A stretch of 20,405 nt of DNA from a virus, in the IMG/VR virus record IMGVR_UViG_3300032291_002409, positions 1 through 20,405 of that record. One strand, 5' to 3'. The position numbers and the translations under genes are program-made. Shown here piece by piece: positions 3,577 to 16,290 of the stretch; position 1 is the stretch's first letter, and each line of letters begins with the position of its first letter. The notes under the pieces are model-generated. The model searched no databases, was not told where the DNA came from, and worked only from the letters and a program-made list of their open reading frames with translations.

Positions 3577-4068
3577 TTAAAACGGCAGCTTTTCTTCATT
3601 CATGAAAGGCTCTTCTCTTTTCAGCTGATTAAATTGCTCGGATGTTAGGTTAAACTTCTCCTGAATCTGCTCTAACATTAAATCTCCATGCTTAACTTTT
3701 AGTAACATGGCTTTCATCTGATTCTCTGTTGGGTATGGTAACTCTACTGCTGGTGTATATTCCTCCTCTTTCTTCTCAGATTTGTTACTCATCTTCTTAG
3801 CATAAGAACCTATGATGTCGGTGTAGTATTTGCCTTCATGTTCCCGGTAAGATACTTTGCCTTCTAAATAGCATAAATCCCCTTTATCTGCCTTGAATTC
3901 CTTAAAGATAGTGCATTGATGCCATTGTGTATTCTCTTTCCACTCTCCATTCTTATCCTTATAAGACTCTGATGTTGCCAGGGAAAAACTTGTAAGCTTG
4001 TCTCCGCTTTTTGTGTCCTTAATTTCGATTTTGCCAATCCTTCCAATCAGCGTGATTTTGTTAATCAT
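3577..4068 (-). CDS. ssb: Single-stranded DNA-binding protein
   Basis: The protein is 163 residues from the ATG at 4068. A longer open frame to 4131 exists, but MINKITLIGRIGK is the canonical SSB N-terminus, and the bases just upstream are the A/T-rich leader usual here. The OB-fold spans residues ~1-95 with the conserved ATSESYKDKNGEWKENTQWH segment (31-50) and a KGDLCYLEGKVSYRE strand. The C-terminus NEEKLPF is a short version of the acidic '-DDxxPF' tip that recruits replication and repair proteins. Between them, residues ~113-152 look helical (EQIQEKFNLTSEQFNQLK), which ordinary bacterial SSBs do not usually have. It coats single-stranded DNA during phage replication and recombination. 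It is the last gene of the leftward operon, 131 bp after the helicase gene. Confidence 0.92.
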   Translation of the reverse strand: MINKITLIGRIGKIEIKDTKSGDKLTSFSLATSESYKDKNGEWKENTQWHQCTIFKEFKADKGDLCYLEGKVSYREHEGKYYTDIIGSYAKKMSNKSEKKEEEYTPAVELPYPTENQMKAMLLKVKHGDLMLEQIQEKFNLTSEQFNQLKREEPFMNEEKLPF

Positions 4069-4173
4069 GTTTTTTAATTTTATGTTTATGAATTTTTTTG
4101 AACTTGTTTGTCTTTCTGTTGCCTGGCGCAAGGTTGTTAGTCATTATAAATATTCCGCTACCAAGACAAAAAA

Positions 4174-4199: not shown

Positions 4200-5912
4200 T
4201 TATAGAACATTTTTTAAGTTAATCTGTACACATCTACCAATCAAACCACTCGAAAATCTTGTTGTGCTACGCTTGGATGCTCCAGGATGTCTTAGTAGTA
4301 TCGTTGCATAGCTTACTGCCCATGGTGTCCTGCTCAAAACTTGTTTTATAAATGTAGATGTATTCAATATTACTAAGTATTTCTCCTTTTTCTCCTCTAT
4401 CACTCGTATTCCTAATCTCTGTAATCTCTCATCCGCTGCGCTTTGCTTTATTTTAGATTGTGGGTCATATTTAGAAGCATAATCTACGAGTTCCCCTACG
4501 GTTAGTGTGCCAATGTAATCTCCTTCTATCCTTGTCTCATTCTGTAGTATTGTCTGTAAACATCTCTGCTCATCTGTCAGTTCTTCTCTGTCTTCCAATA
4601 TTCCTTTCATGTCAAGTATTGCAGCAGATTCTTCAAGTGCTTCTTTAGGACTAACAACATCATCATTCCAGGTATGCCACCATCCTCCCAATAGTGCGCC
4701 ATATTGGTCCCCGATTGCTCTATCTTCTGTAAGTTCTGTTATGGCTTCAGTAAACATATTTATACTTTGCAATAATTGTGGTAACATATTTACCATCCTT
4801 GCAATAAATCTTAGACCATAATCTCCTTTTATAATCTCCTTCCTTCTCTTGTTTAATTCTTTAAACTTGTCAGGATTAGGATGCTTTGCCAATTCAAATA
4901 TTGTGAATCTCCTTTTATCAGAATCATTAACAAGTTGAGGATTGATACTAACAAATAAAAAACAACTGCGGACAAAATAATCCGTTGCCTTTCCATCCTT
5001 TCCTCCTTTTGGGATGGCTGGAGATTTCTCAGATGATCCTGCCCGGGCAAGTGCGATAACTTCCTGCATTCTTCTTGCTGCATTCTCATCATTACCTTCA
5101 GATTCATCTATCGTTACAGGCATAGCATCAGAATTTAACTTCTGTCTTATCGCTGCCTCTGTCGCAGATGTTCCCTGTGCGTTTATACAAAAATCAGATA
5201 GAACAGGATTTATTATCTGTTCTAAGACATAACTCTTACCGTTGCCCCTTGGTCCAGTAATCCAGGCATGAGGTCTCCAAGATAATGCTCCACAAATAGA
5301 TGCAATAGCTAACCATCCAGCAAGTAATTTACCATCTGCATAGGTTTGCCAATTTAATGAGCAGAGAATCTTAGTAAGCAAAGAACTTTCCATCTTATCC
5401 ATTGCTGATTCGATTGGAATTTTTATGTTCTTTCTCATCTCGTAGGTATATTCTGTCTCTATTGTACCAAGATTAAATCGGCACTTATTTGTAAGTAACT
5501 GCATTCCGCTATGGAAGATAATTCTATCAGATTCTTTCCATGCTCCTCTGCCTCGTATGTTCTGTAAGTCAAAATATCCGACAGCATTGGACATCTTTAC
5601 AAGAAAATCAGATATTGCTTCACTTTTAGCAAACATAGGATTATCCCAAAATTCAATGGGTGCAAGTGATGTAAGATGCTGTTTAGTAAATTTAGATGTG
5701 CTGTATGCCAAAATAGCATTTGACATTCTCGAGTAAAAGTAAAATCTCTGAACTCTGCTTTCAGTATCCCATCCGAGTGGCTTAAAATAACCACCAACAA
5801 AACCTCTGTTATCTAAGGTTGGTGTGTTGCCAGGTGCAGGTTCTGCCTTGACTCTTTTCTTTTTTATTTCGGGTTTAGGCTCATCGCCCCAGCTAATTGG
5901 TAGTTTTTTCAT
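4200..5912 (-). CDS. Phage replicative helicase (AAA+/SF3-like, DUF927-related ATPase)
   Basis: This is a 570-residue protein. A basic N-terminal ~30 residues precede an all-purpose N-domain. The ATPase core then starts at WRPHAWITGPRGNGKS, with Walker A GPRGNGKS at 220-227. A Walker B-like VTIDESEG lies at 266-273, a sensor-type FVSIN at 320-324 and a candidate arginine finger KRRF at 333-336. The spacing and the ATEAAIRQ and RMQEVIALARAGSSE stretches match the phage family that carries this helicase with or without a fused primase. Residues ~440-570 look like a winged-helix tail. No TOPRIM or prim-pol motif is visible, so this copy appears to be helicase only. Its start overlaps the upstream stop by ATGA (5909-5912). 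Role: unwinding DNA at the replication fork. Confidence 0.8.
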   Translation of the reverse strand: MKKLPISWGDEPKPEIKKKRVKAEPAPGNTPTLDNRGFVGGYFKPLGWDTESRVQRFYFYSRMSNAILAYSTSKFTKQHLTSLAPIEFWDNPMFAKSEAISDFLVKMSNAVGYFDLQNIRGRGAWKESDRIIFHSGMQLLTNKCRFNLGTIETEYTYEMRKNIKIPIESAMDKMESSLLTKILCSLNWQTYADGKLLAGWLAIASICGALSWRPHAWITGPRGNGKSYVLEQIINPVLSDFCINAQGTSATEAAIRQKLNSDAMPVTIDESEGNDENAARRMQEVIALARAGSSEKSPAIPKGGKDGKATDYFVRSCFLFVSINPQLVNDSDKRRFTIFELAKHPNPDKFKELNKRRKEIIKGDYGLRFIARMVNMLPQLLQSINMFTEAITELTEDRAIGDQYGALLGGWWHTWNDDVVSPKEALEESAAILDMKGILEDREELTDEQRCLQTILQNETRIEGDYIGTLTVGELVDYASKYDPQSKIKQSAADERLQRLGIRVIEEKKEKYLVILNTSTFIKQVLSRTPWAVSYATILLRHPGASKRSTTRFSSGLIGRCVQINLKNVL

Positions 5913-8613: not shown

Positions 8614-10137
8614 TTATAATATTTTTTTCAATAATTTTTTTTTGTCCTTATAAAATTGTCTCCAAATGACCATCAAATGTAGTTTTATGTCATTTTCTTC
8701 TAACGAAATAAGGTTTATTCCAAACTGATTATTTACTTTTTCTATTGTTTTATCCTTCGAATAATAAATTACATCATAACAAAATGTATGGTAAACCCAC
8801 CAGTCCTTGTATCCTCTTGCTTCCTTTTTCTCCCACAATTTATCTAAATGTCCTTTCTTTAATAAATTATCTAAACTTACATTCAGTTTTACTGCTACTC
8901 CTTTCTTTTTAAGCACAGATTTAATAACTTTTTCTTTTTCTGCTCCACAATATGGACAGCAATCTTCTTTCTTTTCGAAAACTCTGTAACAGGACTTACA
9001 TTGTGTGAATGGGTCTTCTTCCTCATCCTCCTTATTTTTTTGTTTTTTCTTTGTCATCTCTAACTTCCAGTCCCTTTCAATCAATGGATGCTTATGGTTT
9101 GAATAGTTATTCACATGGTCCAAGATTAAACAACTTGTCTTGCCCGGGCATGGTCTTAATCCTCTGCCTACAATCTGTAAATACAATGCAGTAGATGTAG
9201 TTTTTCTAAGCAATCCCACAACAGCGACAGCAGGAATATCTGTCCCTTCAGAGATAAGGTTACAAAATGTAACCACCTGGATACTTCTGTCTGCCAATCC
9301 TTTGAATATTCTATCAACTTCCTCATCTTTCATCTCTCCATTAACTGCCTCAGCTGCATATCCTGCATCTCTGAAAGCCTGTGCCATTTTTTTTGAATGC
9401 TTTATGTCTATGCAAGAATAGATAGCAGGCTCTCCTGGTGCTAACCTGGAATATTCTGCAATTATATCTCCTATTATTACATTCTGTTCCATTATCTGCA
9501 CCATCTTATTTAGATTGTATTCTCCAAACTTATCCTTTTTTAGGTTATCAAGTTCTTTTATAGGTTTAAAGATATAGTATTCAGGCATTACAAGATTACC
9601 CATCTTTGCAAGTGCAGCTGGAGAAGGACCAAGTACCATTTCTTGATATATGTCTCCCAGTCCTTTGCCATCCATCCTTATGGGAGTGGCAGTTACACCA
9701 AGAGTATAAACATCACTATAAAAATTAAGAATGTCTTTCCATGTGCCAGCGTTCGAATGATGTGCTTCATCGACTATAATAAGATCGGGTCTTATGTTAA
9801 TCTTATCCAATCTGTTCTTTAAGGTCTGCACACTACATATCTGTGCTTTGCATTTATAGTCAGGTTTTATCCCACCTGCAATAATTGAATGTGCCAGGTT
9901 GTATTTATTACATCTTTCCGATATCTGCCTTACAAGGTTCTTCTTATGCACCAGGAAGAACACAGTCTTTCCTTTTGCCAATGTCTTTTCAGCTATGTGT
10001 ATAAATGTCTCAGTCTTACCACCTCCTGTAGGCAGTACATAAAGAACTTTTTTGATTCCTTCCCCAAAACATTTTCTAATCCCATTAACACCATCTTCCT
10101 GGTATTGTCTTAATTTAACCCCTTCTACCTCTCTCAT
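8614..10137 (-). CDS. SF2 DEAH-type DNA helicase with zinc ribbon
   Basis: This 507-residue protein has the full superfamily 2 motif set. LRQYQEDGV (9-17) is Q-motif-like, motif I PTGGGKT is at 36-42, motif II DEAH at 123-126, motif III TAT at 149-151, a GTDIP segment at 298-302, and motif VI QIVGRGLRP at 321-329. A highly charged linker follows, then a four-cysteine zinc ribbon CKSC (380-383)...CPYC (394-397). The C-terminal ~100 residues, with tryptophan-rich GYKDWWVYHTF, are a less conserved tail. The set fits phage helicases of the RecG/UvsW/RadD-like ATP-dependent group that act in replication restart and recombination. Its first 23 bases overlap the end of the regulator gene, so both are probably on one transcript. 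No terminator is obvious after it. Confidence 0.9.
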   Translation of the reverse strand: MREVEGVKLRQYQEDGVNGIRKCFGEGIKKVLYVLPTGGGKTETFIHIAEKTLAKGKTVFFLVHKKNLVRQISERCNKYNLAHSIIAGGIKPDYKCKAQICSVQTLKNRLDKINIRPDLIIVDEAHHSNAGTWKDILNFYSDVYTLGVTATPIRMDGKGLGDIYQEMVLGPSPAALAKMGNLVMPEYYIFKPIKELDNLKKDKFGEYNLNKMVQIMEQNVIIGDIIAEYSRLAPGEPAIYSCIDIKHSKKMAQAFRDAGYAAEAVNGEMKDEEVDRIFKGLADRSIQVVTFCNLISEGTDIPAVAVVGLLRKTTSTALYLQIVGRGLRPCPGKTSCLILDHVNNYSNHKHPLIERDWKLEMTKKKQKNKEDEEEDPFTQCKSCYRVFEKKEDCCPYCGAEKEKVIKSVLKKKGVAVKLNVSLDNLLKKGHLDKLWEKKEARGYKDWWVYHTFCYDVIYYSKDKTIEKVNNQFGINLISLEENDIKLHLMVIWRQFYKDKKKLLKKIL

Positions 10138-10333: not shown

Positions 10334-10355
10334 TGTGTTAAATTTTTAAAAAAAA

Positions 10356-10377
10356 TATTATTCATGGTGCAATAATA
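10356..10377. promoter_or_regulatory. Inverted repeat, operator candidate
   Basis: Perfect 7-bp arms TATTATT and AATAATA flank an 8-bp centre (CATGGTGC). It lies between the regulator start (10333) and the -7 box of the opposite promoter (10390), where a bound regulator could affect transcription in both directions. Confidence 0.4.
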
Positions 10378-10392
10378 ATAAAAAAATATTAT
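10375..10392. promoter_or_regulatory. Second copy of the 18-bp operator-like sequence
   Basis: ATAATAAAAAAATATTAT matches the palindrome at 8586-8603 at 15 of 18 positions; only the central TTT is AAA. It overlaps the -7 box TATATTTG by three bases, a similar position relative to its promoter as the first copy. It also overlaps the inverted repeat at 10356-10377. Confidence 0.4.
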
Positions 10393-10397
10393 ATTTG
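10390..10397 (+). promoter_or_regulatory. -7 box of the rightward recombination promoter
   Basis: TATATTTG matches TAnnTTTG exactly, with an expected start near 10403 and about 29 bases of leader before the ATG at 10432. No good TTG is present at -33, so the promoter may need an activator. A 12-bp palindrome TTAAAATTTTAA (10410-10421) lies in the leader. Confidence 0.5.
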
Positions 10398-10431
10398 TCA
10401 CATAATTAGTTAAAATTTTAAAATTACTACA

Positions 10432-11187
10432 ATGACAAACAAAGAGTATCATCAAAAAACTGAGTATCTGAGCAAGTCTTTACTTGACCAGGTACACAAA
10501 TCCCCAGCGCATTATATTGCTGCGCTAAACAAAGAAGCAAAAGAACCTACAGCAGCACAATTGTTTGGTAGTTTAGTACATTCTGTGCTATTCAATCAAG
10601 ATAATTTCGCTATCTCTCCTGTATGTGACAGAAGAACAAAGGAAGGTAAACTTCTTTACGATGCTTTCTTACAGGATGCACAAGGTAAAGAGTTAATCGT
10701 GACTGAAGAACAATATGAGAATGCTCTTAAGATTGTAGCAGCAGTACAACAGCATCCTAAAGCTGCATCATTACTTAGTGAAGGCAAAGCAGAAATGCCA
10801 ATCTTCGGAGAGATAGATGGCACAAAGGTTAAATGCAAACCCGATTTTCATAATACAAAATTTGATGTGCTTGTAGACCTTAAAACTACACAGGACAGTT
10901 CCCCATCTGAATTCGCAAAATCTGTTTTAAACTATCGCTACCATGTTCAAGCTGCTCTTTATCTTGACATCACTAAAGCAAAAAGATTCTTCTTTATTGC
11001 AGTAGAAAAGGAAGCACCATTTAATGTAGAGGTATATGAACTTGACCAGGAAGCAATCGACAAGGGCAGAGATGAATACCTGGCAGATATAAATACTTAC
11101 AAGAAATGCCTTGAAACAAATAACTGGCATGGATATAATGAGACACAAGAAATACATATTCTTTCACTCCCTAAATGGGCAAAATAA
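10432..11187 (+). CDS. RecE-like PD-(D/E)XK exonuclease
   Basis: This is a 251-residue protein of the RecE/exodeoxyribonuclease VIII-like family (PF12684, DUF3799). The N-terminus carries EYLSKSLLDQVHKSPAHYI and AAQLFGSLVHSVLF (41-54), which supplies the conserved His50. The catalytic core is IFGEIDGTKVKCKPDF (124-139) with Asp138, LVDLKTT (147-153) with Asp149 and Lys151, and YRYHVQAALYLD (168-179) with the conserved Gln173. These are the metal-binding and catalytic positions of the fold. The enzyme is expected to resect double-stranded DNA ends to expose single strands for the annealing protein encoded 12 bp downstream. The length is typical for the domain alone. Confidence 0.9.
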   Translation: MTNKEYHQKTEYLSKSLLDQVHKSPAHYIAALNKEAKEPTAAQLFGSLVHSVLFNQDNFAISPVCDRRTKEGKLLYDAFLQDAQGKELIVTEEQYENALKIVAAVQQHPKAASLLSEGKAEMPIFGEIDGTKVKCKPDFHNTKFDVLVDLKTTQDSSPSEFAKSVLNYRYHVQAALYLDITKAKRFFFIAVEKEAPFNVEVYELDQEAIDKGRDEYLADINTYKKCLETNNWHGYNETQEIHILSLPKWAK

Positions 11188-11199
11188 TTCAAAACTACT

Positions 11200-11727
11200 A
11201 TGACAAACATCACAAAACTTCCAAGCTTTCAAGAACTGGTAACAGAGACAGAACAATCTCTTAAAGACAATGCTTTAATGGTCCTTCTTAACCAAGAGCC
11301 ACCAAAGAACTGGCTGTTAGATCATCCAATGATTAAAGGTTACCGCTACTTACCTATCGAAAAAGTAGAATATTTACTCACAAGAATCTTCACAAAGTGG
11401 TGGGTTGAGGTAAAAAATGTGCAAATTTTGGCCAATTCTGTTGTTGTAACAGTACGTTTATACGTTACAAATCCACTAAATGGAGAAATTATGTTCCAAG
11501 ATGGTATCGGAGCAGCACCAATCCAAACAGACAAGGGTTCGGGCGCAACTGATTGGAACTCAGTCAAAACGGATGGAGTTCAGAAGGCTGCCCCATCTGC
11601 CGAAAGTTACGCAATAAAAGACGCTGCGGAGAAATTTGGTAAGATTTTCGGACGAGATGTGAGTAGAAAAACTACGATGGATTACACTCCGTTACTTAAA
11701 AAATCAGACTTTAACGAGCAAATATAA
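11200..11727 (+). CDS. Rad52/Sak-like single-strand annealing protein
   Basis: This 175-residue protein has an N-terminal helical segment followed by a beta-sheet core (WWVEVKNVQILANSVVVTVR, 67-86). A hallmark helix KAAPSAESYAIKDAAEKFGK (129-148) leads into IFGRDV, the position of the conserved 'A.KSA.TDA.KRA...G' motif in Rad52/Sak proteins. It is expected to form rings on single-stranded DNA and anneal complementary strands. The partnership with the RecE-like nuclease 12 bp upstream makes this a RecE/RecT-type recombination pair with a Rad52-fold partner instead of RecT. It may also contact the SSB tail. The operon ends in the terminator 20 bp downstream. The alternative is another single-strand annealing family such as Erf. 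Confidence 0.75.
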   Translation: MTNITKLPSFQELVTETEQSLKDNALMVLLNQEPPKNWLLDHPMIKGYRYLPIEKVEYLLTRIFTKWWVEVKNVQILANSVVVTVRLYVTNPLNGEIMFQDGIGAAPIQTDKGSGATDWNSVKTDGVQKAAPSAESYAIKDAAEKFGKIFGRDVSRKTTMDYTPLLKKSDFNEQI

Positions 11728-11747
11728 CCTCCTAACTATCTGAAATT

Positions 11748-11779
11748 GAGTGCCTAATATAACGGCACTCTTTTTTTTT
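11748..11779 (+). terminator. Strong intrinsic terminator after the recombination genes
   Basis: A perfect 7-bp stem GAGTGCC/GGCACTC with a 9-nt loop is followed directly by nine T residues. It lies 20 bases after the annealing-protein stop and isolates that operon from the repeat region and the terminase genes. Confidence 0.92.
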
Positions 11780-11783
11780 GTCT

Positions 11784-11998
11784 TGTAACAGCCTTTTTAA
11801 ATCGTTACAAAATTGTTACACATAACTTATTGAAATTCAATTCATGTTACAATGTAACGGTTGTAACGGAAAATAATATATATATATAGAGTAATTATAT
11901 ACCTATATGTATGTATTAAAATCGTGTTACATTTGTTACATTGTTACAATATAGTATTTATCGATATCTTGATGTAACAAAAATGTAACCGATGTAAC
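11784..11998. repeat. Iteron-like array of GTTACA/TGTAAC repeats, candidate origin or packaging site
   Basis: Twelve exact copies occur within 215 bp. TGTAAC starts at 11784, 11853, 11862, 11973, 11984 and 11993. GTTACA starts at 11804, 11815, 11846, 11926, 11935 and 11943. The right cluster is three forward then three reversed copies, nearly symmetric about TATCGATA at 11959-11966. The two clusters flank an alternating AT-rich tract (about 11870-11922). No reading frame of note crosses it. The arrangement is that of an iteron replication origin with a DNA-unwinding element; its place just before the terminase genes also allows a packaging (pac/cos) recognition site. Confidence 0.75.
11870..11922. 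other. AT-rich core between repeat clusters
   Basis: This is a nearly pure A/T tract with alternating TA steps around 11876-11888, placed between the left and right repeat clusters. It could be the easily melted element of an origin. Confidence 0.4.
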
Positions 11999-12023
11999 AA
12001 TAGAAAAAATCAAAAAAAAAACA

Positions 12024-12031
12024 TAAATTTG
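12024..12031 (+). promoter_or_regulatory. Bacteroidota-type promoter before the terminase genes
   Basis: TAAATTTG followed by CAC is the TAnnTTTGCA form typical of Bacteroidota promoters. It is preceded by a long A tract and lacks a clear TTG at -33. Transcription would start near 12038, only ~25 bases before the hairpin terminator at 12061, so the immediate product would be a short RNA unless termination is overcome. Confidence 0.6.
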
Positions 12032-12037
12032 CACTAT

Positions 12038-12096
12038 GTCTGTCATAAAGTAGTTTAAGCAAGGGGACAGGTTGTAGTTTATCCTGTCCCTTTTTT
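12038..12096 (+). ncRNA. Possible short leader RNA ending at the terminator
   Basis: The interval from the expected transcription start to the T run is about 59 bases. It has no reading frame of note and is mostly the terminator hairpin. It could be a small RNA or a leader whose read-through is regulated, as with lambda 6S RNA at pR'. This is inferred only from the promoter-terminator spacing. Confidence 0.35.
12061..12096 (+). terminator. Strong intrinsic terminator / attenuator upstream of terS
   Basis: The stem GGGACAGG/CCTGTCCC (12064-12071 with 12083-12090), extendable to 11 bp with AAG/TTT outside, has an 11-nt loop and is followed by six T residues. It stands between the promoter at 12024 and the TerS start at 12207 with the late genes downstream, so it either ends upstream transcription or acts as an attenuator. 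Confidence 0.9.
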
Positions 12097-12144
12097 AAAA
12101 ATCTTCGATTTAAGACACTTTTTTTTTATTTTTATAGTAGAGTA

Positions 12145-12175
12145 CCACTTTAAAAAGATAATCGCTTAAAAGTGG
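12145..12175. repeat. Inverted repeat in the terS leader
   Basis: Perfect 7-bp arms CCACTTT and AAAGTGG are separated by 17 bases, ending 31 bases before the TerS ATG. It is not followed by a T run, so it is not a terminator. It could be a protein-binding site or an mRNA hairpin near the start. Confidence 0.4.
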
Positions 12176-12206
12176 CAAAGAATGTTAAACAAACATATTT
12201 TAACTT

Positions 12207-12560
12207 ATGCCTTTCGAACCTGGTAATACTTTAGGCAAGGGAAGACCAAAGGGAGCAATAAATAAAACCACTTCCGAAACAAAAGAATTCCTTGCTCGAA
12301 TCTCCAACAAACTCGGAAAAAGAGTAGAGGAGGACTTAGACTTAATGGACCCTAAAGACAGGGTTAAAATTTGGCTTGAACTACAGGAATACTTAATACC
12401 AAAATTAAGCCGAACCGAACTAACTGGAGAAGATGGCGGAATGATAGAGATACAACAAACCTTAAAACTCGAAAACCTTGGCATTGCTCAACTCAGAGAA
12501 CTTGAAAGAATTGCTGAACTTGCAGCGGATTCGTCAGCTGATAGCAGCCAAGGAGTTTAA
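12207..12560 (+). CDS. terS: Terminase small subunit
   Basis: This 117-residue protein starts at an ATG with an A/T-rich leader. Its N-terminus, GNTLGKGRPKGAINKTTSET (6-25), is the basic 'GRPKGAxNK' element of a common small-terminase family. It continues with helices around FLARISNKLGKRVEEDLDLM (28-47) and DRVKIWLELQEYLIPKLSRT (51-70), matching the 'P.DR...W..L.EYVIPKLxRTE' pattern. The role is to recognise the packaging site on phage DNA and load the large subunit. The repeat array just upstream is a candidate site. The last ~80 bases overlap the large-subunit frame (+1 relative to this frame). Confidence 0.82.
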   Translation: MPFEPGNTLGKGRPKGAINKTTSETKEFLARISNKLGKRVEEDLDLMDPKDRVKIWLELQEYLIPKLSRTELTGEDGGMIEIQQTLKLENLGIAQLRELERIAELAADSSADSSQGV

Positions 12561-13920
12561 GCGTTTCGTTAAACAGACAAAGCCTGACTATCAGTTTTCA
12601 TGGCATCACAATCTTTTAATTGACCATTTGCAGCAGTTTGCAGAAGGTAAGATTCGAAAGCTTATGGTGTTCATGCCTCCACAACATGGTAAGTCTGAAC
12701 TAACATCCAGGCGATTACCTGCCTATTTGCTTGGCATCAATCCAAAACTAAAGATTGTCGGATGTTCCTATTCTGCCGATCTAAGCAGAAGTTTTAACCG
12801 AGATGTGCAAAGGATAATGGATGATGATGTCTACATAGATATCTTCCCAAATACCAGGTTAAACTCTTCGAACATCAGGACAAGTGCTAAAGGTAGTTAC
12901 CTGAGGAATGCAGACATTTTCGAGATTGTAGAGAATGTAGGTTTTTATAAATCTGTTGGTGTTGGTGGTTCACTTACTGGTACACCTGTTGACATTGGCA
13001 TCATAGATGACCCTGTTAAGGATGTTGTAGAGGCTAATTCATTAACCTACAGAGCAAGGGTTTGGGATTGGTATAATGGTGTTTTTTCTACTCGTTTGCA
13101 CAATAACTCTCAGGTGCTTATCACTCAGACTCGATGGCATGAAGATGACCTTAGTGGTAGAATACTAAAGCAAAAGGATGCACATGAATGGACAGTCTTA
13201 ACCTTACCTGGTATCCTGATGACAGCAGAAAAGAATCAGGATGACCCGAGAAAGATTGGAGAAGCACTATGGGAAGACAGGCATAGCTTATCTAAGCTTA
13301 TTAAATTTCAAGAGAATTCTCCAAGACTATTTCAAGCGATGTACCAGCAAGACCCGAAGCCTTTTGAAGGTGGATTGGTTTATCCTCGTTGGAATGCTAT
13401 CGAAGAGACAGAATACAGAGCCATAAACATTGAGCCATTATACGGATTAGACTTTGGTTACAGTACCAGTCCTGCTGCATTCGTAGAGATAAAACTGGAT
13501 ATGCTTAACAGAAAGATTTACGTTAAGCAACTAATCTATAAAAGGGCAATGGGTATCGATGAACTTGGCGATCAAATTAACAGGACCATTCAGACAGGCA
13601 GAAGCAAGATAATTGCAGATTCAGCAGACCCGATTCTGATAGACCATTTAAGAGGCAAGCATAGGTTAAACGTACACAAAGCAGACAAGGGGAAGGATAG
13701 TATTTCCTATGGTATTTCTGTTATCAATGAATTTGAACTGGTGGTTACAAGCGAAAGCAAAGATGTTGCCATGGAACTTTCTAACTACAGATACAAAGAG
13801 GATGCAGATGGCAATCCATTGGATGAGCCTATCAAAGAATATGACCATAGCTTGGATGCTATGCGCTATGCAGTTACATCAGTTATCTCAAAGAAAAACA
13901 ATAAATTTTTACTACTATGA
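12478..13920 (+). CDS. terL: Terminase large subunit (ATPase-nuclease)
   Basis: The frame gives 480 residues from a TTG at 12478. The Walker A-type PPQHGKS is at 67-73, VDIGIIDDPVKD at 171-182 holds the Walker B acidic pair, and TQTRWHEDDL (217-226) is the coupling region. The RNase H-like nuclease has candidate acidic residues Asp325 (LDFGY), Asp381 (ADSADP) and Asp456/460 (YDHSLDAMRYA). It drives ATP-dependent DNA packaging and cuts the concatemer. The start is uncertain. A stop sits at 12463 in this frame and the first in-frame ATG is just before Walker A (residue 63), so translation must start at a TTG (12478, 12484, 12502, 12511 or 12520) or enter from the terS frame. The stop overlaps the next start by ATGA. 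Confidence 0.93.
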   Translation: MALLNSENLKELLNLQRIRQLIAAKEFKRFVKQTKPDYQFSWHHNLLIDHLQQFAEGKIRKLMVFMPPQHGKSELTSRRLPAYLLGINPKLKIVGCSYSADLSRSFNRDVQRIMDDDVYIDIFPNTRLNSSNIRTSAKGSYLRNADIFEIVENVGFYKSVGVGGSLTGTPVDIGIIDDPVKDVVEANSLTYRARVWDWYNGVFSTRLHNNSQVLITQTRWHEDDLSGRILKQKDAHEWTVLTLPGILMTAEKNQDDPRKIGEALWEDRHSLSKLIKFQENSPRLFQAMYQQDPKPFEGGLVYPRWNAIEETEYRAINIEPLYGLDFGYSTSPAAFVEIKLDMLNRKIYVKQLIYKRAMGIDELGDQINRTIQTGRSKIIADSADPILIDHLRGKHRLNVHKADKGKDSISYGISVINEFELVVTSESKDVAMELSNYRYKEDADGNPLDEPIKEYDHSLDAMRYAVTSVISKKNNKFLLL

Positions 13921-14159
13921 TAAATGCAAAAGACTTTAAAATTCACTTAGACATGATGATAAGTGAGATTGAATCAAACACAGAAAGATTCAGTTTACAG
14001 ACAAGGCAGCTAATGAATAACCTTATTGCATCCAGGCGGATATGTGAAAGGATATTATCTGACCAGTCTATCCTGGAGAAGCAAGGGAAGGAATACTTTG
14101 AACACAATATGCCTAAAGAGAAGAAACCAATTAAGATATCAAAACCCAAAAACAAATGA
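13917..14159 (+). CDS. Small coiled-coil/basic-tailed hypothetical protein
   Basis: This 80-residue protein has a long amphipathic helix (about 5-62) and a basic, proline-containing end KEKKPIKISKPKNK. It has no membrane segment, signal or catalytic motif. It overlaps TerL at its start and the next gene at its end, both by ATGA, so it is part of the late translational relay. The family is not recognised; small helical proteins here may assist packaging or tail assembly. Confidence 0.6.
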   Translation: MINAKDFKIHLDMMISEIESNTERFSLQTRQLMNNLIASRRICERILSDQSILEKQGKEYFEHNMPKEKKPIKISKPKNK

Positions 14160-14788
14160 TTGATTTAAAAATTGAAGGGATTAAATACAATCTACCTGGA
14201 TTGAAACAGATACAACTTGGTAAGTTTGTAGAATACCTTGATTTCATCACAGAGCATGAACCCCAAGAAGGAGAAGAGGACCCATTATCATGGCTAAATT
14301 TCTACACTAACCACATTGCCTTTTGGACTAATGCAGATATCAAGCTTATAAGGAAGTGTAAGGTAGAAGATATCGCTGGTGTCTATGCTGTACACAACAA
14401 ATATTTAGCACCAGTAGAAGATTCTACATATAATTGCTTTAAATGTGTGGATGAAATATACTATCTTCCGAAAAAGTTTATGTCTGACAGCACAATAGAA
14501 GACTTTGCAGAAGCGAGTGAGTATGAAAAGCAATTGGCAGAAGTATTAAATGGGCAGTATGAAGCATTACCGAAAGTGGCTTCTGTTCTATGCAGGAAGG
14601 AAGGCGAAAGTTTTGACGATTACAATATAGAAGAGAGAGCAAAGTTATTTGAAGAGCATCTTACCGCTTATGATTTATTTCAGATAGGTTTTTTTTTGCA
14701 GAGACAAAGCGAAAAATTGCAGACCAATTCGGAAATCTATATGAAGAGTCAGATGCTCGCAGCCTTAAAGCAGGAGTCAAGGACCTAA
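14156..14788 (+). CDS. Probable tail assembly chaperone (G-like, zero-frame product)
   Basis: This 210-residue acidic protein is highly charged, with a helix-rich character. The part before the slippery site ends TAYDLFQIGFFL (residues ~170-181). Codons 179-181 run through a nine-T tract, and ribosomes that slip -1 there would skip the last 30 residues (ending AALKQESRT) and make a 263-residue fusion (separate entry). A zero-frame protein with a frameshifted longer form is the hallmark of lambda gpG/gpGT-type tail chaperones, which coat the tape-measure protein during tail assembly. That function is inferred from the frameshift and operon position; the sequence itself is not one I recognise with certainty. 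Confidence 0.65.
   Translation: MIDLKIEGIKYNLPGLKQIQLGKFVEYLDFITEHEPQEGEEDPLSWLNFYTNHIAFWTNADIKLIRKCKVEDIAGVYAVHNKYLAPVEDSTYNCFKCVDEIYYLPKKFMSDSTIEDFAEASEYEKQLAEVLNGQYEALPKVASVLCRKEGESFDDYNIEERAKLFEEHLTAYDLFQIGFFLQRQSEKLQTNSEIYMKSQMLAALKQESRT
14689..14697 (+). promoter_or_regulatory. Slippery site for -1 ribosomal frameshifting
   Basis: Nine consecutive T residues give zero-frame codons GGT TTT TTT TTG. T_TTT_TTT (14689-14695) or T_TTT_TTG (14692-14698) fits the X_XXY_YYZ rule. The -1 frame has a TGA at 14671-14673 and then stays open to 14946. No clear downstream hairpin or upstream Shine-Dalgarno stimulator is visible, so efficiency cannot be judged. Confidence 0.75.
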
Positions 14789-14946
14789 TAGAACCCTTCG
14801 GTTGGTTTGCTACGTTTGTTACTTTAGCTGGAGGGGATATTCTAAAGATTAAGGAAGCAGCAAAGCTACCATTATACACAGCATTTGCCTTTTTGAGTCT
14901 TAAGACTGCGCACAATGAATTTGAAAAAAATATGATGAAGCAATGA
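14695..14946 (+). CDS. -1 frame extension of the tail chaperone (T-like domain)
   Basis: The -1 frame encodes 83 codons after the slip. It begins AETKRKIADQFGNLYEESDA, passes through a hydrophobic LIEPFGWFATFVTLAGG core and ends with FEKNMMKQ before TGA at 14944-14946. There is no ATG, GTG or TTG close to its beginning, so it cannot readily start alone. Two facts argue that it is real: it fills the otherwise empty gap between 14788 and 14943, and its stop overlaps the next gene's start by ATGA, the coupling used throughout this operon. The expected product is a 263-residue fusion made in a minority of translations, whose extra domain would recruit tail-tube subunits in the lambda gpGT model. 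A one-base homopolymer error is the alternative. Confidence 0.7.
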   Translation, partial: FAETKRKIADQFGNLYEESDARSLKAGVKDLIEPFGWFATFVTLAGGDILKIKEAAKLPLYTAFAFLSLKTAHNEFEKNMMKQ

Positions 14947-15503
14947 CAATAACACAGTTATCCAATATTTTTAATCTGATTGTACAGAACGATAGTGATT
15001 ACAAGTTTTTTCACTATGGATTTCCATCGGATGTAAACATAAATATCCAAAACAACTTTGACCCATTAGGCGATACAGGTAGACTATTCCCTTATCTGTT
15101 GTTGATACCTCCTGTTCTACAGAGCAGAGCAATGGAGAGTAATACTGAGGCTATATTTGATACTTATCAGGTAGAGTTTTTAATTACAGATACCTATGCG
15201 TACAATCAGGGAATTCTGACATACAAGAATGAGACTACAATTGAGATAGAGCAGAACTTACAGATATTGGCTAAAAAGATTATTCAGTATTTGTTAGACT
15301 ATTCTGCGGTGTCGAATCCTCCATTTAACGTTGGAGATTATCGAATCGAGTTTGACCCATACAGATTTACAGCGGATACAAGGAGCATAAGAGTGCAGTT
15401 AGATTTGGTATTCCCTGCAATCTGTGATGACAGCACATTGGATATTTCATTCCTTCCAATAGACCTGGAAGATATCAGCACAACAGATGAGGAGAAACAA
15501 TGA
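14943..15503 (+). CDS. Tail/structural hypothetical protein
   Basis: This 186-residue protein starts at an ATGA overlap with the -1 frame stop and overlaps the next gene by ATGA (15500-15503). It has mixed alpha/beta character. An N-terminal helix is followed by ILTYKNETTIEIEQNLQILA (about 95-114), which continues into KKIIQYLL, and an acidic C-terminus (DLEDISTTDEEK). It resembles no enzyme and has no signal or membrane segment. Position between the tail chaperone and a gp10-like protein suggests a tail-completion or tail-terminator role, on synteny only. I do not recognise the family. Confidence 0.6.
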   Translation: MTITQLSNIFNLIVQNDSDYKFFHYGFPSDVNINIQNNFDPLGDTGRLFPYLLLIPPVLQSRAMESNTEAIFDTYQVEFLITDTYAYNQGILTYKNETTIEIEQNLQILAKKIIQYLLDYSAVSNPPFNVGDYRIEFDPYRFTADTRSIRVQLDLVFPAICDDSTLDISFLPIDLEDISTTDEEKQ

Positions 15504-16006
15504 TAGGAGATGACTTGTTACAAGATTTAGCGGACCTTCTGATAGAGGAGATGAGGCAACAGCTTAAGATAGCAGACCATATTATGACTGGTAGTCTATC
15601 TGAGAGCATTGAAGAACGTATTTTGACAACTATAGATGGAAGGAAGATTGAGATATGGATTAACGATTATGGGATAGCTTTAGACCAAGGAGTTCCAGCG
15701 GATAGGATTCCATTCACAGAGCCATCAGGAAGAGGAGGGCGGAGCAAGTATATCGAAGGGTTACAGAGATTTGCACAGCTAAAGTTAGGAGTGACAGACC
15801 AAAGAAAAAGTTTAGGGATAGCTTTTGCGATTGCGAGAAAACATAAGTATGGTAGTCCTGGCGGAATGCCTGTCAAAGGACCAACACAATTTATTCAAAA
15901 GACATTAACAGCAACTGAAGAAGAAATAATTAAATTTGCGGAGGAATGGTCTAAGGCTATATTCGAAGCACAGATTGAAAGTATAATTCAAAACATAAGA
16001 GCATGA
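15500..16006 (+). CDS. Possible tail-completion protein (HK97 gp10-like)
   Basis: This is a 168-residue protein. The N-terminal helix DDLLQDLADLLIEEMRQQLK is followed by TGSLSESIEERI (30-41) and an IEIWINDYGIALDQGVPADR stretch (51-70). This ordering (helix, 'TGxLxxSI', beta strand, 'Y...lDxG') is seen in HK97 gp10-like tail-completion proteins. The centre has a basic glycine-rich loop GRGGRSK and a KHKYGSPGG segment. The C-terminal helix is acidic. It is coupled to both neighbours by ATGA. The assignment is a weak resemblance; it remains a hypothetical head-tail or tail protein otherwise. Confidence 0.5.
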   Translation: MIGDDLLQDLADLLIEEMRQQLKIADHIMTGSLSESIEERILTTIDGRKIEIWINDYGIALDQGVPADRIPFTEPSGRGGRSKYIEGLQRFAQLKLGVTDQRKSLGIAFAIARKHKYGSPGGMPVKGPTQFIQKTLTATEEEIIKFAEEWSKAIFEAQIESIIQNIRA

Positions 16007-16290
16007 CCGAAAAGAAATTTACAATCACTTTATTAAGCCAGGCAGATTCAGAAACTTTGCAAAACGACTACCAAGATGCTATAGATGCACAAGGTGGGAA
16101 TCAAAAAGCTAAGTCTTTAGCTGTATCTGCTTATGTTACTTTTATAATACCTGCCAGCCTTAATGCTGATTATAATGCTGCTGACCAGGATAAAAAAGAA
16201 AAGATGGCAGCTATTTGTCAGCTTACTTTTGCAAGTGGTCAAGACTTTGATACTTATTATGTACAACTATATAACGAAATTTACGCATAA
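16003..16290 (+). CDS. Small hypothetical late protein
   Basis: This is a 95-residue protein with a charged N-terminus (MTEKKFTITLLSQADSE), an alanine-rich central region (QKAKSLAVSAYVTFIIPASL, 34-53) and an acidic, aromatic end. A membrane segment is doubtful because the hydrophobic stretch is short. It overlaps the previous gene by ATGA and shares one base (TAATG) with the next, so it is co-translated. The family is not recognised. Confidence 0.55.
   Translation: MTEKKFTITLLSQADSETLQNDYQDAIDAQGGNQKAKSLAVSAYVTFIIPASLNADYNAADQDKKEKMAAICQLTFASGQDFDTYYVQLYNEIYA

Follow-up and report, generated by a model that had tools for sequence, protein, structure and literature searches.

A mirrored array of GTWAC boxes as a probable phage replication origin of the SaPI-Rep/SCCmec-Cch type with a detached initiator gene

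Described origins and the locus under study

SaPI origins lie directly downstream of the initiator gene, and iterons in opposed sets are a criterion by which they are recognised. Their multiple short iterons are read by the C-terminal domain of a self-loading AAA+ helicase, for which loading as two hexamers has been proposed (PMC7581432). Cch2 of SCCmec also binds its own iterons via its C-terminal domain; these are only three AAGTG iterons, and Cch2 belongs to a different helicase family from Cch (PMC7581432). P4 alpha, as cited in PMC4234260, is a helicase with a winged-helix domain that binds repeats at the origin. In pRN1 the origin immediately follows an initiator that has a winged helix at its C-terminus (PMC4234260).

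Here we analysed a 20.4-kb phage fragment, whose whole length is called the window below, in which an array of GTTACA/TGTAAC hexamers occupies positions 11784-11998. An earlier note made from the letters alone had offered three functions for this array: an iteron origin with an unwinding element, a TerS-binding pac/cos site, or a late-operator array. Our results argue strongly for the first, disfavour the second, and lend little support to the third. We conclude, with a probability of roughly 0.8, that the array is a phage replication origin of the SaPI-Rep/SCCmec-Cch type. Against this reading stands the distance of 5.9 kb between array and candidate initiator gene in the window, unlike in SaPIs; because of this separation, we claim only that the locus functions as these origins do, as a variant whose initiator gene is detached; strict membership of the SaPI type is not claimed.

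With SaPIbov1-type origins the locus shares short iterons, and the DUF927 helicases of phages with GTTAC-type arrays match SaPIbov1 Rep. It differs in that the window's initiator is of a diverged family outside Pfam's DUF927, in that the origin is situated between recombination and terminase genes, and in that the window is from a phage and not an island. The putative origin of SCCmec Cch2 has its iterons directly downstream of cch2, in the same way as arrays follow the genes of distant homologs of the window's helicase (see below), but consists of the three AAGTG iterons in place of twelve GTWAC boxes in mirrored arms. P4 alpha is unlike the window's protein in being a fused Toprim primase-helicase, and the pRN1 origin consists of a 100-bp stem-loop and has no iterons.

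As listed in Table 1, the leftward early genes encode a single-strand DNA-binding protein, the primase/helicase-like protein, an SF2 helicase, and a small HTH protein of 72 aa. Facing this block are the rightward exonuclease and Rad52-like annealing genes, followed by the intergenic array, terS, and terL. The terS product is a probable small terminase subunit from its position before terL; its PHROG matches were weak and of unknown function. A TAnnTTTG promoter-like element and best TerL matches that include a Flavobacterium phage suggest that the host is probably a member of the Bacteroidota. Neither Pfam nor PHROGs identified a portal or major capsid gene after terL (12478-16290); the structural genes of this stretch are very diverged or unusually ordered.

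Table 1 Positions of genes and array elements in the window
Feature	Position	Strand	Remarks
Single-strand DNA-binding protein (SSB)	3577..4131	-	next gene after candidate initiator
AAA+ primase/helicase-like protein, 570 aa, candidate initiator	4200..5912	-	PHROG 35358, E 9e-100
SF2 (ResIII-type) helicase	8614..10137	-	early module
PD-(D/E)XK exonuclease (exonuclease VIII-like, DUF3799)	10432..11187	+	
Rad52-like single-strand annealing protein (SSAP)	11200..11727	+	array's left neighbour
Terminator-like hairpin	11749-11780		just 3' of annealing-protein gene
Left iteron arm	11784..11867	.	six GTWAC sites
Left-arm hexamers	11784(-), 11804(+), 11815(+), 11846(+), 11853(-), 11862(-)		GTWAC core starts 11785, 11804, 11815, 11846, 11854, 11863
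AT-rich core, candidate unwinding element	11868..11925	.	between arms
Right iteron arm	11926..11998	.	six GTWAC sites
Right-arm hexamers	11926(+), 11935(+), 11943(+), 11973(-), 11984(-), 11993(-)		GTWAC core starts 11926, 11935, 11943, 11974, 11985, 11994
Conserved Bacteroidota-type -7 element	12024-12033		right after array
Conserved hairpin with T run	12063-12096		before terS
Probable small terminase subunit (TerS)	12207..12560	+	array's right neighbour
Terminase large subunit (TerL)	12478..13920	+	

Architecture of the array

All twelve exact hexamers that the earlier note had reported were found at the positions given there, and its statement that their number far exceeds what base composition predicts was borne out: 5000 dinucleotide-preserving shuffles of the 479-bp intergenic region (11728-12206) contained on average 0.60 and at most 5 copies, none reaching 12, which rules out chance or base composition as the source of the array. 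The remaining 19.9 kb of the window contain 19 further hexamers, only a modest excess over the shuffle mean of 11.5 for the whole window. A search of Rfam gave no match, scans for sigma-70 promoters and terminators gave no signal beyond chance, blastn of the array against named phages returned weak partial matches at most, and a literature search for GTTACA as a phage iteron found no relevant report.

The core starts are spaced 19, 11, 31, 8, 9 | 63 | 9, 8, 31, 11, 9 bp, and ten of the twelve GTWAC cores form five pairs (sum 23789) whose positions mirror each other exactly across 11896.5, midway through the AT-rich core. The richest 50 bp of this core begins at 11870 and has 88% A+T. Five mirror pairs arose in 4 of 100,000 random placements and in 20 of 20,000 permutations of the gap order. 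The real unit is therefore two arms of six boxes around an AT-rich core, an arrangement in two opposed sets as in SaPI origins. The symmetry about 11962 noticed earlier is real as a local mirror within the right arm, but the main dyad at 11896.5 had been overlooked. Likewise, TATCGATA, previously taken as the mirror centre, is a genuine palindrome that is not kept in relatives. As most boxes read TGTWACA, and TGTTACA and its complement TGTAACA differ at the central base alone, the "orientation" of a box amounts to one base; the copy equivalent to 11846 has the mirrored orientation in relatives.

If the array is an origin, the helicase encoded at 4200-5912 would recognise the GTWAC boxes through its C-terminal domain, with one box of an arm for each of the six C-terminal domains in a helicase ring. 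Two hexamers might thus load head to head with the AT-rich core between them, melt this core, and travel apart as bidirectional forks. Six boxes per arm would then suggest one hexamer per fork, a parallel in bacterial viruses to MCM double-hexamer loading.

The candidate initiator and the conservation of the array

Pfam assigned no family to the 570-aa protein, and the DUF927 model did not recognise it. When a profile of 40 homologs was aligned by hhalign with a set of phage DUF927 proteins, taken from array loci and named phages, the match began at Walker A, reached the C-terminus and covered 300 columns (E 9.9e-7, probability 91%). This DUF927 set in turn matched SaPIbov1 Rep (8tch; E 2e-49) and SCCmec Cch (5dgk; E 5e-28). 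The relation of the window's protein to Cch and Rep is a distant one; sequence profiles of the window helicase family itself matched no solved Cch or Rep. The structure model was poor (mean pLDDT 50.9), and Foldseek found no significant match for it in the PDB; among structural matches of this low-confidence model, Cch (DUF927) ranked first with Z 5.0 and SaPIbov1 Rep third with Z 4.7. The helices and hairpins at the C-terminus, mostly at pLDDT 67-87 after residue 490 within the poor overall model, are compatible with a winged helix, which makes the C-terminal domain (~440-570) a candidate for one. We regard the 4200-5912 product as a diverged AAA+ helicase distantly related to SaPIbov1 Rep and SCCmec Cch. 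Its role as a self-loading helicase initiator is supported, not proven, by the profile link to DUF927 helicases and the structural matches to Cch and Rep.

Homologs of this protein were gathered down to 29% identity. Those 75-81% identical had a GTTACA array 5-6 kb from the gene, and those 56-57% identical a GTAACA array 7-9 kb away. In an unbiased search, the top-scoring two-strand hexamer array at homologs of 29-35% identity lay no more than 250 bp past the homolog's stop codon in 14 loci (L610, L611, L612, L619, L621, L623-L627, L631, L639, L641, and L642), with scores of 16-53 compared with a null maximum of 14.7. The position directly downstream of the initiator gene that the window lacks is thus found in its distant homologs. 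Their arrays usually had a GTTAC core, sometimes a GTGACA or GTTGCA variant, and arms often repeated the triplet followed by a step of 31-33 bp. The next genes included, by inspection, a sliding-clamp-like gene and other non-terminase genes, which shows that terS is not required. L619, L621, and L626 carry twelve GTGACA/TGTCAC boxes 122-123 bp behind the initiator homolog; they represent natural specificity variants useful for finding the residues that read the central base.

Close relatives of the window have the array in the same place with 8-12 copies; the earlier note had named a lack of conservation as grounds for abandoning its proposal. Conservation is highest in the inner triplets, whose spacings of 8,9 | 9,8 are kept in many close relatives. 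One subgroup has TGTAAC 8 TGTAAC 9 TGTAAC, the core, and GTTACA 9 GTTACA 8 GTTACA; elsewhere the third right-hand box varies and the outer copies differ in number or orientation. Locus L034 retains eleven copies; neither an annealing protein nor a TerS resembling those of the window was detected there. L582, with a helicase homolog of 56% identity, has the array 12,31,8,9 | 69 | 9,8,31,12.

Genome G007 (56% for the homolog of the 4200-5912 protein, 71% for SSAP) encodes no TerS or TerL similar to those of the window and retains the array skeleton (10,12,30,8,10 | 76 | 17,31,12,9). Genomes G013 and G014, with a TerL 72% identical and a different early module, lack the array at the equivalent place, and G020 (TerL 68%, helicase 41%) carries an array of CCTTAA/TTAAGG at the corresponding site upstream of terS (L068:12198-12460). 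These cases show that the array follows the early, replication module and not the terminase lineage that a pac site would be expected to follow. For G020, we note that the motif has changed where the helicase has diverged.

The assemblies of two close relatives, ~34.5 and 33.6 kb long, are circular, as their end repeats of 127 and 123 bp show; in both, the cumulative GC-skew minimum falls 481 bp before the array, a position that agrees with an origin but is confounded by the divergent gene orientation.

Arrays in other viruses and alternative functions

Scanning viral contigs for three close GTTACA copies yielded at least 120 stretches. Among the matches listed, 80 of 120 had at least two copies on each strand, compared with 12 of 120 for each of the control hexamers ACATTG and CTATGA. 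We lean, by a modest degree, towards a shared origin code, in which an arm of about six GTWAC boxes, used singly or mirrored, serves phages with different initiator helicases (DUF927, VapE, DUF5906, NrS-1-type, and the window's) and also forms the single marine arms before terS. The order in such a canonical arm would be a triplet at 8-9 bp, a long step of 31 or 41-43 bp, a pair at 11-12 bp, and a single box. This arm was present in 39 of 81 viral arrays among the matches listed, with 4.6 expected from permuted gaps. Its long step was mostly 31-32 or 40-45 bp, two lengths that differ by about one helical turn, and its spacing was found beside several helicase families and terS genes. Bacterial-genome matches were mixed, some resembling tandem intergenic repeats, with the canonical arm in 5 of 43.

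Among the matches listed, many of which are related so that independent lineages are fewer than loci, the array was directly downstream of the DUF927 gene in 9 of 10 loci (overlapping it in the tenth), of VapE in 8 of 9, and of the NrS-1-type polymerase gene in 2 of 2. Four named phages with DUF927 helicases also have a GTTAC-type array behind the DUF927 gene. To our knowledge, origins are unmapped in most phages known from metagenomes alone; if the shared code holds, motif and spacing rule would locate origins by sequence across unrelated phages and tie them to testable initiator helicases.

The position before terS recalls P1 pac, where hexamer clusters flank a central region close to terS. 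The array might accordingly be a pac/cos packaging site, with TerS binding both clusters and TerL cutting between them. Its distance of 209 bp from terS fits this function. So does the finding that, among the matches listed, an array immediately precedes terS in 24 of the 26 near loci whose TerS is of the Terminase_2 family and in all three loci of another TerS family. We nevertheless consider a packaging site unlikely, as motif and spacing are common to unrelated TerS families (G007, window, Terminase_2, cl34), the array is absent before the 72%-identical TerLs, and it stays behind the helicase gene where the next gene is not terS. The P1 hexamer is also a different one, and the window array is linked to a helicase, not to a terminase.

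The marine one-arm phages are the remaining point for packaging. A single GTTAC arm lies directly upstream of a Terminase_2-type terS in L094, L098, L117, L126, L131, L160, and L179, and no DUF927, D5_N, VapE, or window-type helicase was found in the one-arm contigs tested, mostly fragments. Another protein can therefore sit on such arms, and a packaging-related role is possible for them. Such single arms before terS also prompt one to ask if the start of replication is connected with the control of packaging.

Still less probable is an operator array of a late promoter, by which a phage regulator would switch terS and the structural genes. The conserved -7 element and the conserved hairpin between array and terS are in line with it, but twelve sites in a two-arm dyad far exceed the needs of a promoter, and arrays follow replication helicases in unrelated phages. 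The small HTH gene also has no sites in its divergent promoter region (10334-10431); operators of an HTH repressor were discarded on this ground. A partition or copy-control locus (centromere or incompatibility site) bound by a segregation protein has the least to recommend it: iteron arrays are known from such loci too, but the window showed no recognisable parA/parB-like gene, and the linkage of the array is to initiator helicases.

Beside the probable origin, some candidate transcription signals were observed. The terminator-like hairpin before the left arm (GAGTGCC/GGCACTC) is followed by a long T run. The -7 element TAnnTTTGCA reads TAAATTTGCA in the window and TATTTTTGCA in relatives, and the arms of the hairpin before terS, GGGACAGG/CCTGTCCC, are replaced in relatives by GGGGAAGG/CCTTCCCC, a paired change. 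Together, -7 element and hairpin perhaps form a late promoter with a leader terminator or antitermination point.
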